Below, in pieces: positions 1,093-8,142 of a DNA stretch of 64,000 nucleotides. The stretch covers positions 1 to 64,000 of the forward strand of contig NZ_JASCXX010000014.1 of the NCBI RefSeq assembly GCF_030012215.1, read 5' to 3'. The translations under genes were made by a program, and so were the position numbers. The notes under the pieces were generated by a model that saw nothing but the letters and a program-made list of their open reading frames with translations, was not told where the DNA came from and did no database searches. The stretch is from Anaerobaca lacustris (GTDB taxonomy: Bacteria; Planctomycetota; Phycisphaerae; Sedimentisphaerales; Anaerobacaceae). Position 1 is the stretch's first letter. Every line of letters begins with the position of its first letter.

Positions 1093-2400
1093 ATGCAGGT
1101 AGACCTTCACTATGGAACGGGTGTTGTCTCGCTTCGGGTGCCGGATCGGAACGTGCAGGAGATCATCCGGCCCTGGCAGGGGGAGCAGGGGGGCAATGGG
1201 GTGGTGAGCCTGCGGGAGACGATGGACGGTCAGGCGGGCGCCTTTCGCGACGCGGTCGCCGACAAACGGGTGTGCGTCCTCGTCGACGATGGCACGCGCG
1301 ACGAGCCGCTGGCGGACGTGCTGGCGGGACTGTGTGCCGCGCTGCAGCCGACCGTCTCGGTGCAATTCTTGATCTGCACGGGAACGCACACGGCCGCGAC
1401 GCCGAAGAACGAGCAGATCCGCCGCGAGATCGAGAAGGCCGGCCGGGACGCCGGCCTGACCGTTGTGCGAATTCACACCCATGACTGTCAGGCCGATACG
1501 TTCATCGACGTCGGCCGCACGTCGAGAGGGACGCAGGTGCTGGTCAACGCGTTTGCCGAGGAGGCAGACGTTTTTCTCGTTGTTGCCGATGTGAAGGTCC
1601 ATTACTTCGCGGGCTATTCGAATCCTGTAAAGAACTTCGTGCCCGGCATCTGTGCCTTTCGCACGGTCGAACAGAATCACAGCCTGGCCCTGCTCGATGA
1701 ATCCACGCACGGCGAGCATCCCTGGCATCCCAATCCCGAGCAGAGAAACAACCCACTGGCCGAGGACATGGTCGAGGGGATGGACCTGATCGCCAGGGGC
1801 CGGCCGATCTACGCGCTGGTGATGCTCAGCGCCGGCCCACGGCTGATCTGGGCGCGGTTCGGGCCGGTCCAGGACGTGAGCGCCGAGTCCTTCGCCGTGA
1901 CCGACGAACGGAACATCCAGACGGTCGCCCCGGCGTCGCATCTGGTCGTCTCGCCGGGCGGACGGAGCAACGACGAAGACCTCTACATCGCCCAGCGAGC
2001 CCTGGAACTGAACCGGGCGGCGGTGAGCGATGGCGGTGAGGTCCTGTTCCTGGCCGCCTGTCCCAACGGCATCGGCGAGCCGCAGACCCTGGCGAATTTC
2101 TACGACCGTTTGACGGCGCCGCTCGACGAGGTCATCCGGTCGATCCAGCAGGATTATGTCCTGTACAGTCACAAGCCGTACAAGTTCGCCGTGCTGATCC
2201 GCCGGCTGCGACGCATCTGGATGCACACGCAGATCGCCGACGATCTCGTCGAGGCGGCCCATATGCATCCCGCGCACGACCCGCAGGCTGTGGTGGACGG
2301 CTGGCTCGCCGAGCAGCCCGACGCCAGGATCATCTTCATCGACGGCGCCAACAAGGTCGCCCTCCGGGCCACGGGTGTGGATAGGAAAGGACCAGCATGA
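1093..2400 (+). CDS. LarA-family (DUF2088) nickel-pincer racemase/epimerase-like protein
   Basis: Resembles nickel-dependent lactate racemase LarA, which interconverts 2-hydroxyacid stereoisomers using a nicotinic-acid-derived nickel pincer bound to a lysine. Family residues are visible with LarA-like spacing: H99 in CTGTHT, H170 in KVHYFAGYS, K180 in NPVKNFVPG (the expected cofactor-bearing lysine) and H196 in EQNHS. The ATG at 1093 starts the conserved LarA N-terminus; an earlier in-frame start would overlap the deacetylase and adds an unconserved tail. It overlaps the next gene by 4 bp (ATGA), implying translational coupling. No larB, larC or larE cofactor genes lie nearby, so the pincer must be made elsewhere. 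Since LarA homologues act on varied 2-hydroxyacids and some sugars, the substrate cannot be named. Confidence 0.8.
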   Translation: MQVDLHYGTGVVSLRVPDRNVQEIIRPWQGEQGGNGVVSLRETMDGQAGAFRDAVADKRVCVLVDDGTRDEPLADVLAGLCAALQPTVSVQFLICTGTHTAATPKNEQIRREIEKAGRDAGLTVVRIHTHDCQADTFIDVGRTSRGTQVLVNAFAEEADVFLVVADVKVHYFAGYSNPVKNFVPGICAFRTVEQNHSLALLDESTHGEHPWHPNPEQRNNPLAEDMVEGMDLIARGRPIYALVMLSAGPRLIWARFGPVQDVSAESFAVTDERNIQTVAPASHLVVSPGGRSNDEDLYIAQRALELNRAAVSDGGEVLFLAACPNGIGEPQTLANFYDRLTAPLDEVIRSIQQDYVLYSHKPYKFAVLIRRLRRIWMHTQIADDLVEAAHMHPAHDPQAVVDGWLAEQPDARIIFIDGANKVALRATGVDRKGPA

Positions 2401-3968
2401 ACCAACACACGCGACGATCGGACCGAAATATCCTTGTTGCCCTGGTCTGCCACGTGTTGTTCCCGGCTTGCGATGTCTCGGCCGATCAGCCGCAGTGGGG
2501 CCGGGCGTGGACGCGGAACATGGTCTCCGACGCCACCGGGCTGATCGAGGACTTCGATCCCGCCACCGGCAGAAACGTCAGATGGGTGGTCCCCCTCGGC
2601 ACGGAGACGTGGGCGACGCCGATCGTCGCGCAGGGCCGCGTCTTCATCGGGACCAACAACAGGCCGCCCCGCGATCCGCGACACCGGGGCGACCGGGCGC
2701 TGCTGCTGTGCCTGGACGAGAACGACGGCCGCCTGCTCTGGCAGTCGGTGGTTCCCAAGCTCGGCCCCGATCCCTATTTGGACTGGCCGGGATCGGGCTT
2801 CTGCTCGCCGGTGACGGTCGAGGGCGACCGGGTGTATGTCGTCAACAATCGTGGCGAGGCCATGTGCCTCGATATCGAGGGCCAGCGCAACGGCAACCAG
2901 GGCCCGTTTCTGGACGAGGGCCGGCACATGGTCCCCGAAGGCGAACCACCGATCGAGGTTGCCGAGACGGATGGCGACATCATCTGGCTGTTCGACATTC
3001 ACAAGGAGACGGGGACGTATCCGCACGACGGGGCCCACTCCTCGATCCTGATCGACGGCGACTTCCTGTACATGAACACCGGCAACGGGGTAGACAATAC
3101 GCACCGCGTGATTCGCCGCCCCGATGGTCCCAGCCTCATCGTACTCGACAAGCATACCGGCCGTTATCTGGCCCGCGACGATGAGCGGATCGGACCGCGC
3201 ATCTTCCACTGCACGTGGTCGTCGCCCTCGATGGGAGTGGTGAACGGCTGCAAGCAGATCTTCTTCGGCGGCGGCGACGGCGTGCTCTACGCCTTCGAGC
3301 CGCTGGAAGCCGCGTGGCGAGGGCGTCCCGCCCTCGCGAATGCGGAACAAGGGCAAGATGCCCTCGCCACGGGCACGGTGGCGACACTCAAGCGAATCTG
3401 GCGGTTCGACCCCGATCCGGCGGCCCCGAAGGAGAACGTCAGCGACTATCTTCGCAACCGCGAGGTGAGCCCGAGCGTCATCAAAGGCATGCCGGTCTTT
3501 CATGAGAACCGCCTGTACTTTACATATGGAGGCGACATCTGGTGGGGCAAGAGGCAGGCATGGCTGGCGTGCATCGATGCGACGAAGACCGGTGATCTAA
3601 CCGATTCGGCGCTGGTGTGGTCGTACGAGTTGAACGAACAGAGTTGCTCGACGCCGGCCATCCACGATGGGCTGGCGTTCATCGTCGATTGCGGTCGGAC
3701 GATCCATTGCGTCGACATCGAGACAGGCCAAGCCCTTTGGACCCATGAGACCCAGGGCGAGATCTGGGCCTCGCCGCTGGTCGCCGACGGCAAGCTCTAC
3801 ATCGGCACCAAACGCCGGGACTTCTGGATCCTGGCCGCCGGCCGCGAGAAGAAGGTCCTCAGCGAGACCCGGCTTGACAGCCCCATCTCCGCTTCACCCA
3901 TTGCCGCCAACGGCGTGGTCTACGTCGCGACGATGAGGAACCTCTACGCACTCCAGGCATCGCCGTGA
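2397..3968 (+). CDS. Secreted PQQ-like beta-propeller repeat protein
   Basis: An exported protein of 523 aa built from repeated tryptophan-docking-type blades. Motifs such as VVPLGTETWATPIV, GRVFIGTNN, GLAFIVDCGRTIHCVDIETG and DGKLYIGTKRRDFWIL alternate along residues 60-520, typical of PQQ_2/BamB-like propellers. A hydrophobic signal segment covers about residues 12-29. There are no clear quinoprotein catalytic residues, so binding or scaffolding is as likely as dehydrogenase activity. The gene starts inside the LarA stop codon (ATGA). Residues about 306-325 (RGRPALANAEQGQDALAT) are encoded by a 57-bp palindromic repeat unrelated to the propeller pattern, apparently an in-frame insertion. 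Confidence 0.78.
   Translation: MNQHTRRSDRNILVALVCHVLFPACDVSADQPQWGRAWTRNMVSDATGLIEDFDPATGRNVRWVVPLGTETWATPIVAQGRVFIGTNNRPPRDPRHRGDRALLLCLDENDGRLLWQSVVPKLGPDPYLDWPGSGFCSPVTVEGDRVYVVNNRGEAMCLDIEGQRNGNQGPFLDEGRHMVPEGEPPIEVAETDGDIIWLFDIHKETGTYPHDGAHSSILIDGDFLYMNTGNGVDNTHRVIRRPDGPSLIVLDKHTGRYLARDDERIGPRIFHCTWSSPSMGVVNGCKQIFFGGGDGVLYAFEPLEAAWRGRPALANAEQGQDALATGTVATLKRIWRFDPDPAAPKENVSDYLRNREVSPSVIKGMPVFHENRLYFTYGGDIWWGKRQAWLACIDATKTGDLTDSALVWSYELNEQSCSTPAIHDGLAFIVDCGRTIHCVDIETGQALWTHETQGEIWASPLVADGKLYIGTKRRDFWILAAGREKKVLSETRLDSPISASPIAANGVVYVATMRNLYALQASP
3314..3370. repeat. 57-bp palindromic element inside a coding sequence
   Basis: The outer arms GTGGCGAGGG and CCCTCGCCAC (3314-3323, 3361-3370) are perfect 10-bp complements. 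Inside are a second hairpin, GCGAGGGCG/CGCCCTCGC around TCC, and GGGCA/TGCCC around AGA. The element is 57 bp, exactly 19 codons, so it leaves the propeller reading frame intact. Confidence 0.75.
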
Positions 3969-4045: not shown

Positions 4046-4900
4046 CTATCTTCTGTAGCGATACGCCCATCCGGCGGCCATGTAATCGATGTCCGATGTC
4101 TGTCCCTCGGGTGGATATTCGATGCCGTATTGCGTCACGCCTTGTGTGAGCAGCTTGTCCACGCGTTCGATCGTGAAGCGGTCTCGCCACTTGCGGACCT
4201 CCGAATGGCCGTCGCAGAAGCCCAGCACGCTGCTGTCACCGTGATTGACGGCCATCGGCCCCCACCAGCCCCATCGGGACAGTTGCGTGTACTCGGGCGC
4301 ACCCAGAACGAAGTGGTGGCTGGAATTCCAGTTGCGCGTCTCGGCGCTCTCGACGAACACGTATCGCGTCGAAGGCGAAGAGATCTCGTCGAATCTCCTG
4401 ATCTGATGGTTGTAGCGAGGGTCGCCTGGATCCGTGACATAGTACAGGCATTGAGGAATCGAATAGGTGACAAAGACACGGGTCCCGTCATACATGCTCT
4501 TGCGGATGTTGTCGCCGGGGCAGTGATAGACTTTCGGGTTCTTGACGTACGGAAACAGGACCCCTTCCCGGATCCCGCGAATCTCGTCCTCGTCCGTCAC
4601 CGGGGGTTCCGTCTGCGAGATGCTCATCCGATTGCCGCCCTCGTCGCGCGGGATGCCGCACCAGCCGATGAACTTCCCGCCCGGCTCCGTCGCGTAGTCC
4701 TCGCAGCTCATGATGCGGCCGTCGTTGTCCTGCATGTACATGTACCAGCCGAGCGAGAGGTTCTTGGTGTTGCTCAGACACGCGGTCGTGGCGGCCTTCT
4801 TTTTGGCCAGATTCAACGCGGGCATGATGATCGCCATCAGCAGGGCGATGATCGCGATGACCACCAGCAATTCGATCAGGGTGAACGCTCGTGTCTTCAT
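4046..4900 (-). CDS. Type II secretion-like pseudopilin (prepilin N-terminal methylation domain, H-X9-DG type)
   Basis: The N-terminus MKTRAFTLIELLVVIAI is a textbook class III prepilin signal: cleavage before F followed by a +5 glutamate and one hydrophobic helix. The C-terminal part carries GFCDGHSE, the DG motif of the large DUF1559/H-X9-DG pseudopilin group that planctomycetes and relatives encode in many copies. Start at 4900 is supported by an AGGCGCAAGG ribosome site directly upstream; the longer frame begins inside the neighbouring gene. It lies 31 bp downstream of the large LamG protein on the same strand and is probably co-transcribed with it. Its role is likely surface display or secretion, but the individual function of such proteins is unknown. 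Confidence 0.88.
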   Translation of the reverse strand: MKTRAFTLIELLVVIAIIALLMAIIMPALNLAKKKAATTACLSNTKNLSLGWYMYMQDNDGRIMSCEDYATEPGGKFIGWCGIPRDEGGNRMSISQTEPPVTDEDEIRGIREGVLFPYVKNPKVYHCPGDNIRKSMYDGTRVFVTYSIPQCLYYVTDPGDPRYNHQIRRFDEISSPSTRYVFVESAETRNWNSSHHFVLGAPEYTQLSRWGWWGPMAVNHGDSSVLGFCDGHSEVRKWRDRFTIERVDKLLTQGVTQYGIEYPPEGQTSDIDYMAAGWAYRYRR

Positions 4901-4931
4901 CCTTGCGCCTTTCCGAACCCGAATCGTCCGT

Positions 4932-7844
4932 CTACGGCGTATCAAACGGCATCGTACGTCCGGCAAGCCATGCCATCTCGCCATGAGACAAAGACCGGCC
5001 ATACAGGCGCACCTCGTCGATCGCGCCCGGGAAGTAGCGAGACAGGCTGTCGTGCTTGAGAACGCCGATAGTCATGTTCTGCAGCATCTGGCCGAACTCA
5101 TTGCTGTCGTCGGCCGTGCCCGCCACTTCGCCATTGATATACAACGTGCAGGTTTGCGCCGTCTTGATGATCCCCGCGTGGTGCCAGGCGCCGTCGTCGG
5201 CCGTCACGGTGCTGTAGATGTCCGTTCCGCCGGATGTGCCGAGTGGCGCCCGATGCAGGAATCGCAGCGTGCCGTTGCCGCGAAGCTCGAGGAGAATGCC
5301 ATGCGCTCCGTCCGAGTCGTAGATCGACAGCAGGTCGCGTTCCCCCGTGCCGCCATCGACGCGGAACCACAGGGCGGCCGAGTAGGTCGGCAGATCATAG
5401 GACCCCTCGACGTGAACGTAATCGGCCACTCCGTCGAGCTGAATCGCTTGGTCGGTTCGGCCGGCGGCAAACGTCGGCGAGCCAACGAGGACGCCGTTGC
5501 GCGTTCCACTGCTGTCGTCGGCGTTGCCTTCGAAGGCGAAATGGCCTGTCAGGAGCGCCGAGAGCGGTTCGACGGGGACGATGGAATTGCGATCGAGGGG
5601 AGACAGCGCGATATCGTCAACAAAGAGAAGCCCTTTTCCACCCTCCAACCCGATCGTCAACCTGGTGACGTTGCGGAGATCGGCGCCGGCAAAGTCCGCC
5701 AGGTCGATATACCAGAACTGCCACGTCTTGAGCTGAAGGTTGTCGGCGGCACCGCCATAAAGGACCTTGCTGCCATTGATCTTGACATACATCTGTCCTG
5801 GCGTGTTGGACGGATCACCGTGGAACCAGAGCGTCAGGGCTTTGAGGCCGTACCGCGTCCAGTCCTGTGGCTCGTCGAATGTGCGCGTCGCTTCCGACAC
5901 GGCGGCCGACGTGTTGTCATAGAACAGCGGCATCGACTGCCTTCCGCCGTGGACGATGGCCTGTTCGGCGAATGGTGTGTTCATATACCCCACGACCGAT
6001 CCCGTATCGTTGACCCATCCATCGATCCACGTGTCGAAAATGGCGTTGTCTCCATCGTTGTACGTTTCGAAGTCTTCCACCACGATCGACGGCTGTGTGG
6101 AGAAACTCCAGATCTCGCCTTCCCACAGACCGGGTGTCTCGGCCTCGTTGATCTCATCGATCCTCCAATAGTAGGTCCGGCCCAGTTCGAGCAGACCGTC
6201 GGCATCCAGATGCGACTCATCTGCGACGGCAACCAGGGCCGCGTCGTCGGCCTCCCCGATGAGTTGCGATTCGTCCGTGGTGAGATATACTTCGTGTGTG
6301 ACGGCCCCTCGGCCTGCGCGCCAGCTCAAGACGGCGTCCGGCCCGACGTCCACTGCCCCGGCCGCCGGCTGCGGCTCGCGCGCCTGAACGGGGATGTAGA
6401 GGAAACGCACTTCGCTGAGGCCGAACTGGCCCATCATGCCCCATCCGCTGTTGACGATCAGCCGGACGTATCTGGCCGCAATCCCGCCGAGGTCCACCGT
6501 CGTGTTGTACGTATAGGTGCTCTGGGCGGTGGCCCGAGCCAGCGAAACGTCGCCCAGCGTCATCCAGGCCTCTCCATCAGCAGAGTATTCCACGGTGACG
6601 TCTTTAATGCCGAAACCCAGCACGGGCTCAAACCGCACGTTGTAGTTCCACACGAGCATCTGGTGAAGCTTGTACAGACGATCCAGCTCGAATTGGATGT
6701 ACAGCGGCTCGTCGTCCGGCGGGCTGGCCAGCCACATGTCCTCGCCCTCGGTGGAATGCTGGTCTTCAGCGTTGAGTCCGGACCGATTGACTGTGTTCTC
6801 GGGCCCCAGATCGGCTTCGGAGATTCCGTTGCTGCTGGCGATCGCCTGCTCGATCGGATAGGCCACCGGCTCGGTCGTGAAACTCCAGACCTCGCCCTTG
6901 ATGACGGTGGCCTCCGGTGGCGCGTTGACTTCATCGACGCGCCAGTAGTAGATCTGCTCGAGCTCCACTCGACCGGGGTCGAAGGTTGCTTCAGTCCGTC
7001 CCGAAGCAATCAGAACACCTCGTGGTTCGGCGACAGTGGCGTTTTCGACGTCGTCGCGCGACGTTCCGAGGTAGACGTCGTGCGTGGCCGCGAACATCCC
7101 CGCTGTCCAGCGCAGCAGCACATCCGTCGGCACGTCCACCGCCCCGTTGGCGGGGCTCGGGCTGGTGGCCGTCTCGACGATGCGCCGGTCCAGCTCGAAG
7201 CCGTTCATGACGAGGAAGGCCGTGTTCACAGGGCTCGAGGGCGACGTGACATCGAAGATCAGAACGATGTCATCCGCCCCGTTCGAGACGACCATCGTAT
7301 GGAACACCGTGACATTCTCGAAGCCATCGACGCGGTCGGCCGTTCCGGACTCCGAATGGGAGATGTCGATGTCCGTCGTTGTGTGCGAGCCGGTCGCATC
7401 GACAACCGTGACATTGAAGATGCCGGTCTGGTCGTCGGTATCGTGGTGGTAGGAAAGCCACGAGTAGGATCCTTGCGGAAGCCCGGAGATGGTGAGGCGC
7501 ATCGGGTTGCCGACCTGGCGGGTGTCCGTCCCGATCCACGTGTTGATCAGATCGGCGTGCTCGCCCGTGTAGCCGTTTCTGCCGCTGGCGCTTCGGTCGA
7601 TCATCGCCATGACGGTGTTTGCCGCGCCGGTGGCCCAGGTGGGCTGGAGCGTCACTGTGGCGCCGAAGGCGGAATAGCTCTGCGCCGTGAACGTGGCCGC
7701 GTCGCTTCGGGTGGCGAAATACCCCTGGTAGCCGGCCTCGACCGGTCCGCCGGTCACCGTGAAGTCGATCCTCAACTGCGCCTGTACCGCAGCGGACCCC
7801 AGCAGCAGGCAGGACAAGATCAGCGTCGTCAGCCTTTTCATCAT
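4932..7844 (-). CDS. Large secreted LamG / discoidin / FN3-like multidomain protein
   Basis: A 970-aa exported protein. A Sec signal (MMKRLTTLILSCLLLGSAAVQA) is followed by an N-terminal beta-rich region (about 25-200) of unknown family. Then come an FN3-like module with HDVYLGTSRDDV and YYWRVDEVN (about 205-325), a discoidin-like (F5/8 C) domain with VWNYNVRFEPVLGFGIKDV (345-480), a second FN3-like module (485-585), a carbohydrate-binding-like module starting VVEDFETYND (590-745), and a C-terminal LamG/concanavalin-like domain (770-960). Start 7844 follows GGAAAGGAGCGC. The protein shares this modular order with the gene at 51649 and is clearly its paralogue. It probably binds polysaccharide or matrix at the cell surface; no catalytic motif is visible. 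A pseudopilin gene follows immediately. Confidence 0.8.
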   Translation of the reverse strand: MMKRLTTLILSCLLLGSAAVQAQLRIDFTVTGGPVEAGYQGYFATRSDAATFTAQSYSAFGATVTLQPTWATGAANTVMAMIDRSASGRNGYTGEHADLINTWIGTDTRQVGNPMRLTISGLPQGSYSWLSYHHDTDDQTGIFNVTVVDATGSHTTTDIDISHSESGTADRVDGFENVTVFHTMVVSNGADDIVLIFDVTSPSSPVNTAFLVMNGFELDRRIVETATSPSPANGAVDVPTDVLLRWTAGMFAATHDVYLGTSRDDVENATVAEPRGVLIASGRTEATFDPGRVELEQIYYWRVDEVNAPPEATVIKGEVWSFTTEPVAYPIEQAIASSNGISEADLGPENTVNRSGLNAEDQHSTEGEDMWLASPPDDEPLYIQFELDRLYKLHQMLVWNYNVRFEPVLGFGIKDVTVEYSADGEAWMTLGDVSLARATAQSTYTYNTTVDLGGIAARYVRLIVNSGWGMMGQFGLSEVRFLYIPVQAREPQPAAGAVDVGPDAVLSWRAGRGAVTHEVYLTTDESQLIGEADDAALVAVADESHLDADGLLELGRTYYWRIDEINEAETPGLWEGEIWSFSTQPSIVVEDFETYNDGDNAIFDTWIDGWVNDTGSVVGYMNTPFAEQAIVHGGRQSMPLFYDNTSAAVSEATRTFDEPQDWTRYGLKALTLWFHGDPSNTPGQMYVKINGSKVLYGGAADNLQLKTWQFWYIDLADFAGADLRNVTRLTIGLEGGKGLLFVDDIALSPLDRNSIVPVEPLSALLTGHFAFEGNADDSSGTRNGVLVGSPTFAAGRTDQAIQLDGVADYVHVEGSYDLPTYSAALWFRVDGGTGERDLLSIYDSDGAHGILLELRGNGTLRFLHRAPLGTSGGTDIYSTVTADDGAWHHAGIIKTAQTCTLYINGEVAGTADDSNEFGQMLQNMTIGVLKHDSLSRYFPGAIDEVRLYGRSLSHGEMAWLAGRTMPFDTP

Positions 7845-8142
7845 GCGCTCCTTTCCGTCAGATATGGACCTCACATAGCACTTACAGAAGAAAGATCACC
7901 GAATCCACGCCACCGCTCTCCTCTCTCATCCTTGGAGGTGTGTTCTTGAGCCATGGCCTCCCAGCTCCAGACCCTTGTGTCCGTGCAGACCGGTGTTCCG
8001 AGCATTCCGTGCGTTCACCCACAGGCCTATTCTATCCTATCGCACCGGATATCGACCAAGAAAATACACAGAAGCGGCGTCCATAGCGTGCGAAGGGTGG
8101 TACAGACGGCCGGACCGGCAGGGGTGGATGCGCCTTCTTCGT
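7845..8142. other. Intergenic region between divergent LamG and marR genes
   Basis: About 300 bp without a supported gene. It should contain the promoter for the minus-strand LamG gene, but no convincing -35/-10 pair was found for it. Short open frames here lack ribosome sites and family resemblance. The plus-strand promoter and operator lie just to the right. Confidence 0.5.

Follow-up and report, generated by a model that had tools for sequence, protein, structure and literature searches.

Inteins with homing endonucleases are mobile inserts that lie in frame at a conserved site of essential proteins, show a patchy distribution and carry a DNA-cutting enzyme within the host frame. IStrons, which consist of a group I intron joined to an insertion sequence, are spliced out at the RNA level (PMC4227781). 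REPINs, or REP doublets, have been described as extragenic elements that accompany free-standing genes for REP-associated tyrosine transposases, the RAYTs (Bertels and Rainey, 2011, PMC3116915). RAYTs cut single strands of REPs, and substrates tagged with GTGG were found to be cleavable in one system (PMC8266576). They have been described as vertically inherited single-copy genes (PMC8049555), and a survey from 2018 took the few unexpectedly long members of the transposase family to be fusions or errors of annotation and left them aside (PMC6006769). Translated REPs inside genes were described in 2013 as segments of 20-30 residues, occurring as singles and dimers, often in genes for DNA repair but also in tRNA synthetases (PMC3733652). 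The GTAG-20 REPs of the verrucomicrobium Opitutus terrae mostly carry the tag GTGG, which is thus a published variant (Di Nocera et al., 2013, PMC3733652), and the palindromic repeats of Rickettsia conorii have CGTC tags and no associated transposase (PMC3733652). Here we describe a palindromic element inside a gene of the planctomycete Anaerobaca lacustris, located in a stretch of 64,000 nt (hereafter the window), and its relationship to RAYTs that are themselves embedded in the frames of host genes.

Results

The element (positions 3314-3370; GTGGCGAGGGCGTCCCGCCCTCGCGAATGCGGAACAAGGGCAAGATGCCCTCGCCAC) is situated in a gene on the plus strand (2397-3968) for a PQQ-type beta-propeller protein of 523 aa, identified by its match to PF13360 (E 7e-24), by 12 homologues and by an AlphaFold2 model. 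It begins with a REP on the plus strand (3314-3336), in which the tag GTGG (3314-3317) is followed by the hairpin CGAGGGC-GTCCC-GCCCTCG (3318-3336). A spacer of 11 nt (3337-3347) separates this unit from a second, inverted REP on the minus strand (3348-3370), which reads GTGG followed by CGAGGGC-ATCTT-GCCCTTG on that strand, and thus CAAGGGC-AAGAT-GCCCTCG (3348-3366) followed by CCAC on the plus strand. The initial annotation had already recognized the two internal hairpins and the perfect outer arms, which measure 11 bp (GTGGCGAGGGC) rather than the 10 bp it gave. It was also right that 57 bp correspond to 19 codons, but the element starts off the codon boundary.

As single-stranded DNA, the element folds with -27.1 kcal/mol compared to a mean of -13.5 for shuffled sequences (z -6.5; 0 of 200 shuffles), and with 38 of its 57 positions equal to their own reverse complement it is the most self-complementary of all 57-mers in the window. 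The two inverted REPs form one long hairpin, and the element is a REPIN. It lies in frame within a gene, and extragenic location is a habit of REPINs, not part of their definition, with intragenic REPs being an accepted minority (PMC3733652). The terminal tag is GTGG, as compared to the terminal GTAG that marks the GTAG REP superfamily. None of the six frames of the element contains a stop codon, but the same is true of 12% of random 57-mers from the window, which is GC-rich; on its own this is weak evidence, and we do not take the six open frames as proof of adaptation. Many long open reading frames in positions 1-64000 overlap on opposite strands (for example 4710-7949 on the plus and 4932-7874 on the minus strand), and the length of an open frame is by itself weak evidence in this genome. 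Other matches to the hairpin-like pattern in the window (17944, 51772 and 59708) were inspected and judged to be ordinary coding sequence without tags.

The element is read in the propeller gene as W-RGRPALANAEQGQDALAT, as part of residues 306-325. All 12 homologues, among them a paralog from the same genome and proteins from five congeners, align up to the element and again beyond it, with a gap of about 16 residues at precisely this point; none of the 12 carries the insert. This is the gap that the initial annotation had proposed to look for, and the residues whose presence in homologues it would have taken as evidence against an insertion are missing from the 12. The simple reading is that the REPIN was inserted in the lineage of the window, and its open frame suggests that it is translated. 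The AlphaFold2 model of the host protein (pLDDT 79.9, pTM 0.84) has only one long internal stretch with pLDDT below 50, residues 308-324, located between two propeller strands, and the REPIN is accordingly predicted to add a disordered loop, some 16-19 residues long.

We searched the 5.73-Mb genome with BLAST and by pattern, an approach that may miss decayed copies, and identified related REPs at about eight loci, the window included. The element is thus repeated, if only at few places, and the initial annotation, for which a lack of further copies would have spoken against a mobile repeat, was borne out in this respect, with several related copies in frame in mfd, anSME and valS. The hairpin of the left REP recurs exactly at C25:80062, within an in-frame REPIN in mfd (C25:80058-80108), and almost exactly at further loci, while the loop type of the right REP is found again in the mfd REPIN and beside a RAYT in valS (contig C13). 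Three in-frame REPs are located in the gene for the anaerobic sulfatase maturase anSME (C20:26573-26684), and one in the C-terminal part of a hypothetical open reading frame (C6:140065); the REP loci at C6:143771, C27:11467 and C8:173157 look intergenic. The in-frame copies support the suggestion of a mobile repeat that donates peptides to proteins, but the hosts are not mainly exported: most are cytoplasmic. A search of nine REP and RAYT loci against Rfam at a permissive threshold gave no family, only tRNA and a chance match to a miRNA. Since there are only about eight loci, the activity of the REPs is low or past.

The REPIN in mfd is also present in frame in one congener (G002) and missing from another (G005), which indicates that REPs have been inserted into coding sequence and have persisted there. 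The mfd REPINs of A. lacustris (L063) and of the congener that shares it (L093) differ by an indel of four residues, and it therefore seems that REP inserts can change in length, in multiples of three, after insertion.

The valS gene of A. lacustris (C13:125100-128753; L062) contains a complete in-frame RAYT between four REP hairpins. Its 1218 codons form a single stop-free frame, in which residues from about 216 to 459 correspond to the order REP-REP-RAYT-REP-REP. The frame scores above the NCBIfam cut-offs both for valS (893 versus 612 bits) and for NF047646, the profile for RAYTs (83.9 versus 80 bits), and it is the only match to valS in the genome. The RAYT part resembles the E. coli protein TnpAREP (PDB 4er8) by sequence and, in the predicted model, by fold. 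This model of the valyl-tRNA synthetase (ValRS) with its RAYT is poor globally (pLDDT 61, pTM 0.35) and was used for the RAYT and editing domains only: confidence is high for the RAYT (252-430) and the beginning of the editing domain, but not for the linkers encoded by the REPs (214-251 and 434-456). No intein domain, and hence no self-splicing HINT domain, was recognized in the frame with Pfam or NCBIfam. The RAYT is absent from five congeners in which ValRS is 80-96% identical. One congener (G001, L072) has a single in-frame REP (GTGG CGAGGGCGTCTCGCCCTTG) and no RAYT at the valS site, which could be what a departed RAYT left behind or could have been inserted on its own.

The four REPs that flank the RAYT in valS have the same two loop types as the REPs in the window, and their stems are similar, although not identical. 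The genome thus contains a putative cognate RAYT flanked by REPs of this kind, and because of this similarity we regard the RAYT in valS as the best candidate for the transposase that would have mobilized the REPIN in the window. The strongest competing explanation is that the REPIN was moved by another RAYT, which is now lost or located at C17, and that valS harbors a domesticated RAYT domain that has nothing to do with it, the shared REP type being a coincidence. Indeed, a free-standing RAYT-like gene of 233 aa is present at C17:115734-116432 (position 116058 lies within it), with a score below the NF047646 cut-off (62 versus 80 bits), and there is a RAYT fragment at C60. However, the genome searches reported no REPs of the window type near C17, whereas such REPs flank the RAYT in valS on both sides, and adjacency of REP and RAYT is the usual mark of a cognate pair (PMC3116915). 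We therefore consider this explanation unlikely, though it deserves to be kept in mind.

In a GTDB search with the RAYT part, inserts at the same site in valS were identified in eleven assemblies of the Sedimentisphaerales/Phycisphaerae/Planctomycetota, and relatives were also found in ispG of Luteolibacter pohnpeiensis and of another Verrucomicrobiales genome, as well as in other open reading frames. The two RAYTs in ispG (L123, and L125 of L. pohnpeiensis KCTC 22041) are located at different sites in the gene, and L. pohnpeiensis has a second RAYT in a frame of 1161 aa (G638:C44:61888). Within the class, relatives were present in 94 of 397 genomes. In all, in-frame RAYTs at the same site in valS were found in 22 genomes, A. 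lacustris and 21 others. For 50 loci from the class-wide search the host was assigned by homology in the same frame, and all except one free-standing RAYT were in frame within a host gene (49/50). The hosts are valS (at the common site and at others), ileS (7), leuS (1), DinG/YoaA helicases (7), methyltransferases of the type ISP, CcrM-like, DUF1156 and PglX-like kinds, and etfB. Embedded RAYTs are often located in DNA methyltransferases of the restriction or phage-defense type (L154, L158, L160, L165, L168 and L181-L186). Two of the inserts in valS (L157 and L147) have at least three tandem REPs, with a linker that is longer by dozens of residues.

Frames of at least 450 aa surround 87 of 120 relatives (73%), as compared to only 8 of the best 150 matches (5%) in a control search across the Planctomycetota with a general RAYT profile, which argues against high GC content as the cause of the long frames. 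REP-like hairpins were observed upstream of 41 and downstream of 39 of 45 embedded RAYTs, versus 11% of control stretches; their tags are mostly GTGG or GTGT and rarely GTAG. All 40 of the 40 RAYTs compared retain the HUH motif and at least 35 the catalytic tyrosine motif (Y-x3-NP), which together with the profile match in valS identifies them as RAYTs. The REPs and the RAYT are in frame, free of stop codons and flanked by conserved hairpins, in host proteins that are otherwise conserved and at sites that are empty in relatives.

We also considered the possibility that valS acquired its RAYT long ago and has passed it on vertically, as a domain domesticated in the service of ValRS and lost in some lineages. 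The occupation of the same site in 22 genomes and the retained catalytic motifs agree with this idea, as does the vertical inheritance of single-copy RAYTs elsewhere (PMC8049555), and the identities of the RAYT and of ValRS are correlated (r 0.33, Mantel p 0.003). However, the presence of the RAYT changes at least nine times on the ValRS tree, the close congeners mentioned above are without it, and the same RAYT lineage is found in many unrelated genes. For one pair (L115 and L155), near neighbors by ValRS, the ValRS flanks are 87% and 85% identical, and mostly 85-98% identical adjoining the site, whereas the RAYTs are only 59% identical, belong to different clades and are accompanied by different REP types. 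Forcing L115, L152 and L155 together in the RAYT tree, in which many forks are weakly supported, was rejected (AU p 7e-5), and forcing the clade of the A. lacustris RAYT together in the ValRS tree was strongly rejected, with p-values that are optimistic because the groups were named after the trees had been seen. All in all, we think that purely vertical descent is less probable still than a different mobilizer. Because the RAYT and ValRS trees are in conflict, the valS site is probably one to which the RAYT spreads or at which it is exchanged, and repeated insertion or replacement at this one site fits the sequences best. Recombination of the valS/RAYT stretch between species could also be a source of the conflict, although the high identity of both flanks in the above pair speaks against it.

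Discussion

We find it likely, on the strength of the sequence comparisons, that the in-frame insertion of a REPIN, mobilization by a RAYT and a RAYT lineage residing within host genes together explain these observations. The REPIN would be a non-autonomous miniature mobile element that was inserted in frame into the propeller gene, most likely by the action of a RAYT, for which the stop-less frame in valS of the same genome is our best candidate. According to this hypothesis, a REP-RAYT-REP cassette enters an essential or conserved protein at a surface loop, where the REPs would encode flexible linkers and the RAYT would fold as a separate domain. The host promoter and selection on the host protein might then keep the transposase expressed and intact, while solo REPs and REPINs such as that in the window would be its non-autonomous by-products, which land, or survive, in genes whose frame they leave intact. 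We infer that ValRS and the RAYT are translated as one chain, that both halves are active and that the embedded RAYT mobilizes REPINs. The GTGG tag need not prevent such activity, since substrates with this tag are cleavable in at least the one system mentioned above (PMC8266576). One idea is that GTGG in place of GTAG would be favorable for insertion into genes, since it does away with a TAG triplet.

More generally, we lean toward the view that a RAYT lineage of the Planctomycetota and Verrucomicrobiota spreads without stop codons and without splicing in the frames of essential genes, such as those for all three large editing tRNA synthetases, DinG-type helicases, defense methyltransferases and ispG. 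It would re-invade its sites like a homing element, with REPs tagged GTGG, rarely GTAG, seeding translated inserts across the proteome.

It could be argued that the peptides derived from REPs have been retained for a benefit to the host protein, as donated functional segments, and the REPIN in mfd has indeed persisted through at least one speciation. However, the inserts are predicted to be disordered and differ in frame and sequence between genes, the hosts are unrelated proteins and most homologs lack the insert, which makes this explanation improbable. A chance palindrome or an assembly artifact, for which one could cite the draft state of the genome (117 contigs) and the frequency of stop-free frames in GC-rich sequence, is hardly conceivable given the folding energy (z -6.5), the several copies, the exact gaps in homologs, the presence of one copy in a congener as well, and the occurrence of fusions in dozens of independent assemblies, among them single-contig genomes and the isolate L. 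pohnpeiensis KCTC 22041.

Taken alone, the element in the window is a new example of a phenomenon known since 2013, that of translated REPs within genes. RAYTs in frame within essential genes are, as far as the open literature has been searched, undescribed: no paper was found that brings a RAYT together with an aminoacyl- or valyl-tRNA synthetase, nor did a wider search of this literature retrieve any description of such fusions. RAYTs have been seen as domesticated, single-copy and vertically inherited, with REPs that are mostly intergenic, but the present lineage is built in frame into essential proteins, and at one site in valS there are signs that it was gained, lost or replaced repeatedly. 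For a mobile element, this might represent a third mode of residence in an essential gene, in addition to inteins and introns, and apparently one without splicing. It makes accessible to direct study whether a tRNA synthetase can work while its editing domain contains a transposase, whether such a fusion cleaves REPs, and by what route palindromes give rise to new segments of proteins. Annotators should also take note, as long members of the RAYT family have previously been set aside (PMC6006769).

Compared to the REPINs described by Bertels and Rainey (PMC3116915), the elements studied here likewise consist of inverted REPs that form one long single-stranded hairpin, and have a probable cognate RAYT flanked by REPs of the same loop types. 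The difference is that those REPINs are extragenic, whereas here both REPIN and RAYT are in frame inside host genes. The GTAG-20 REPs of O. terrae, also a member of the PVC superphylum, resemble the window element in being tagged with GTGG and lying in frame in open reading frames, but the study that described them (PMC3733652) has a section on RAYTs that concerns REPtrons, with no mention of a transposase that itself lies in frame within a host gene. The initial annotation had compared the element to the Rickettsia palindromic elements, and the parallel holds for the lifestyle, as these too are palindromic repeats in open reading frames that are translated. It does not extend to kinship, since the Rickettsia elements have CGTC tags and no transposase, whereas for the window element the tags are GTGG and a RAYT is available as a candidate; with its GTGG/GTGT type of tag it belongs to the RAYT-associated REP superfamily. 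Like the IStrons, an embedded RAYT would be a transposon that is harmless to the host gene, but it shows no intron and its frame is uninterrupted. The inteins are similar in that they also lie in frame at a conserved site of an essential protein, with a patchy distribution and a DNA-cutting enzyme within the frame. The embedded RAYT differs from them in that no splicing domain was recognized, so that the insert should remain part of the protein, and in that its enzyme is a single-strand HUH transposase with REPs as ends. By analogy, we suggest that these RAYTs lead an intein-like life without a self-splicing part.
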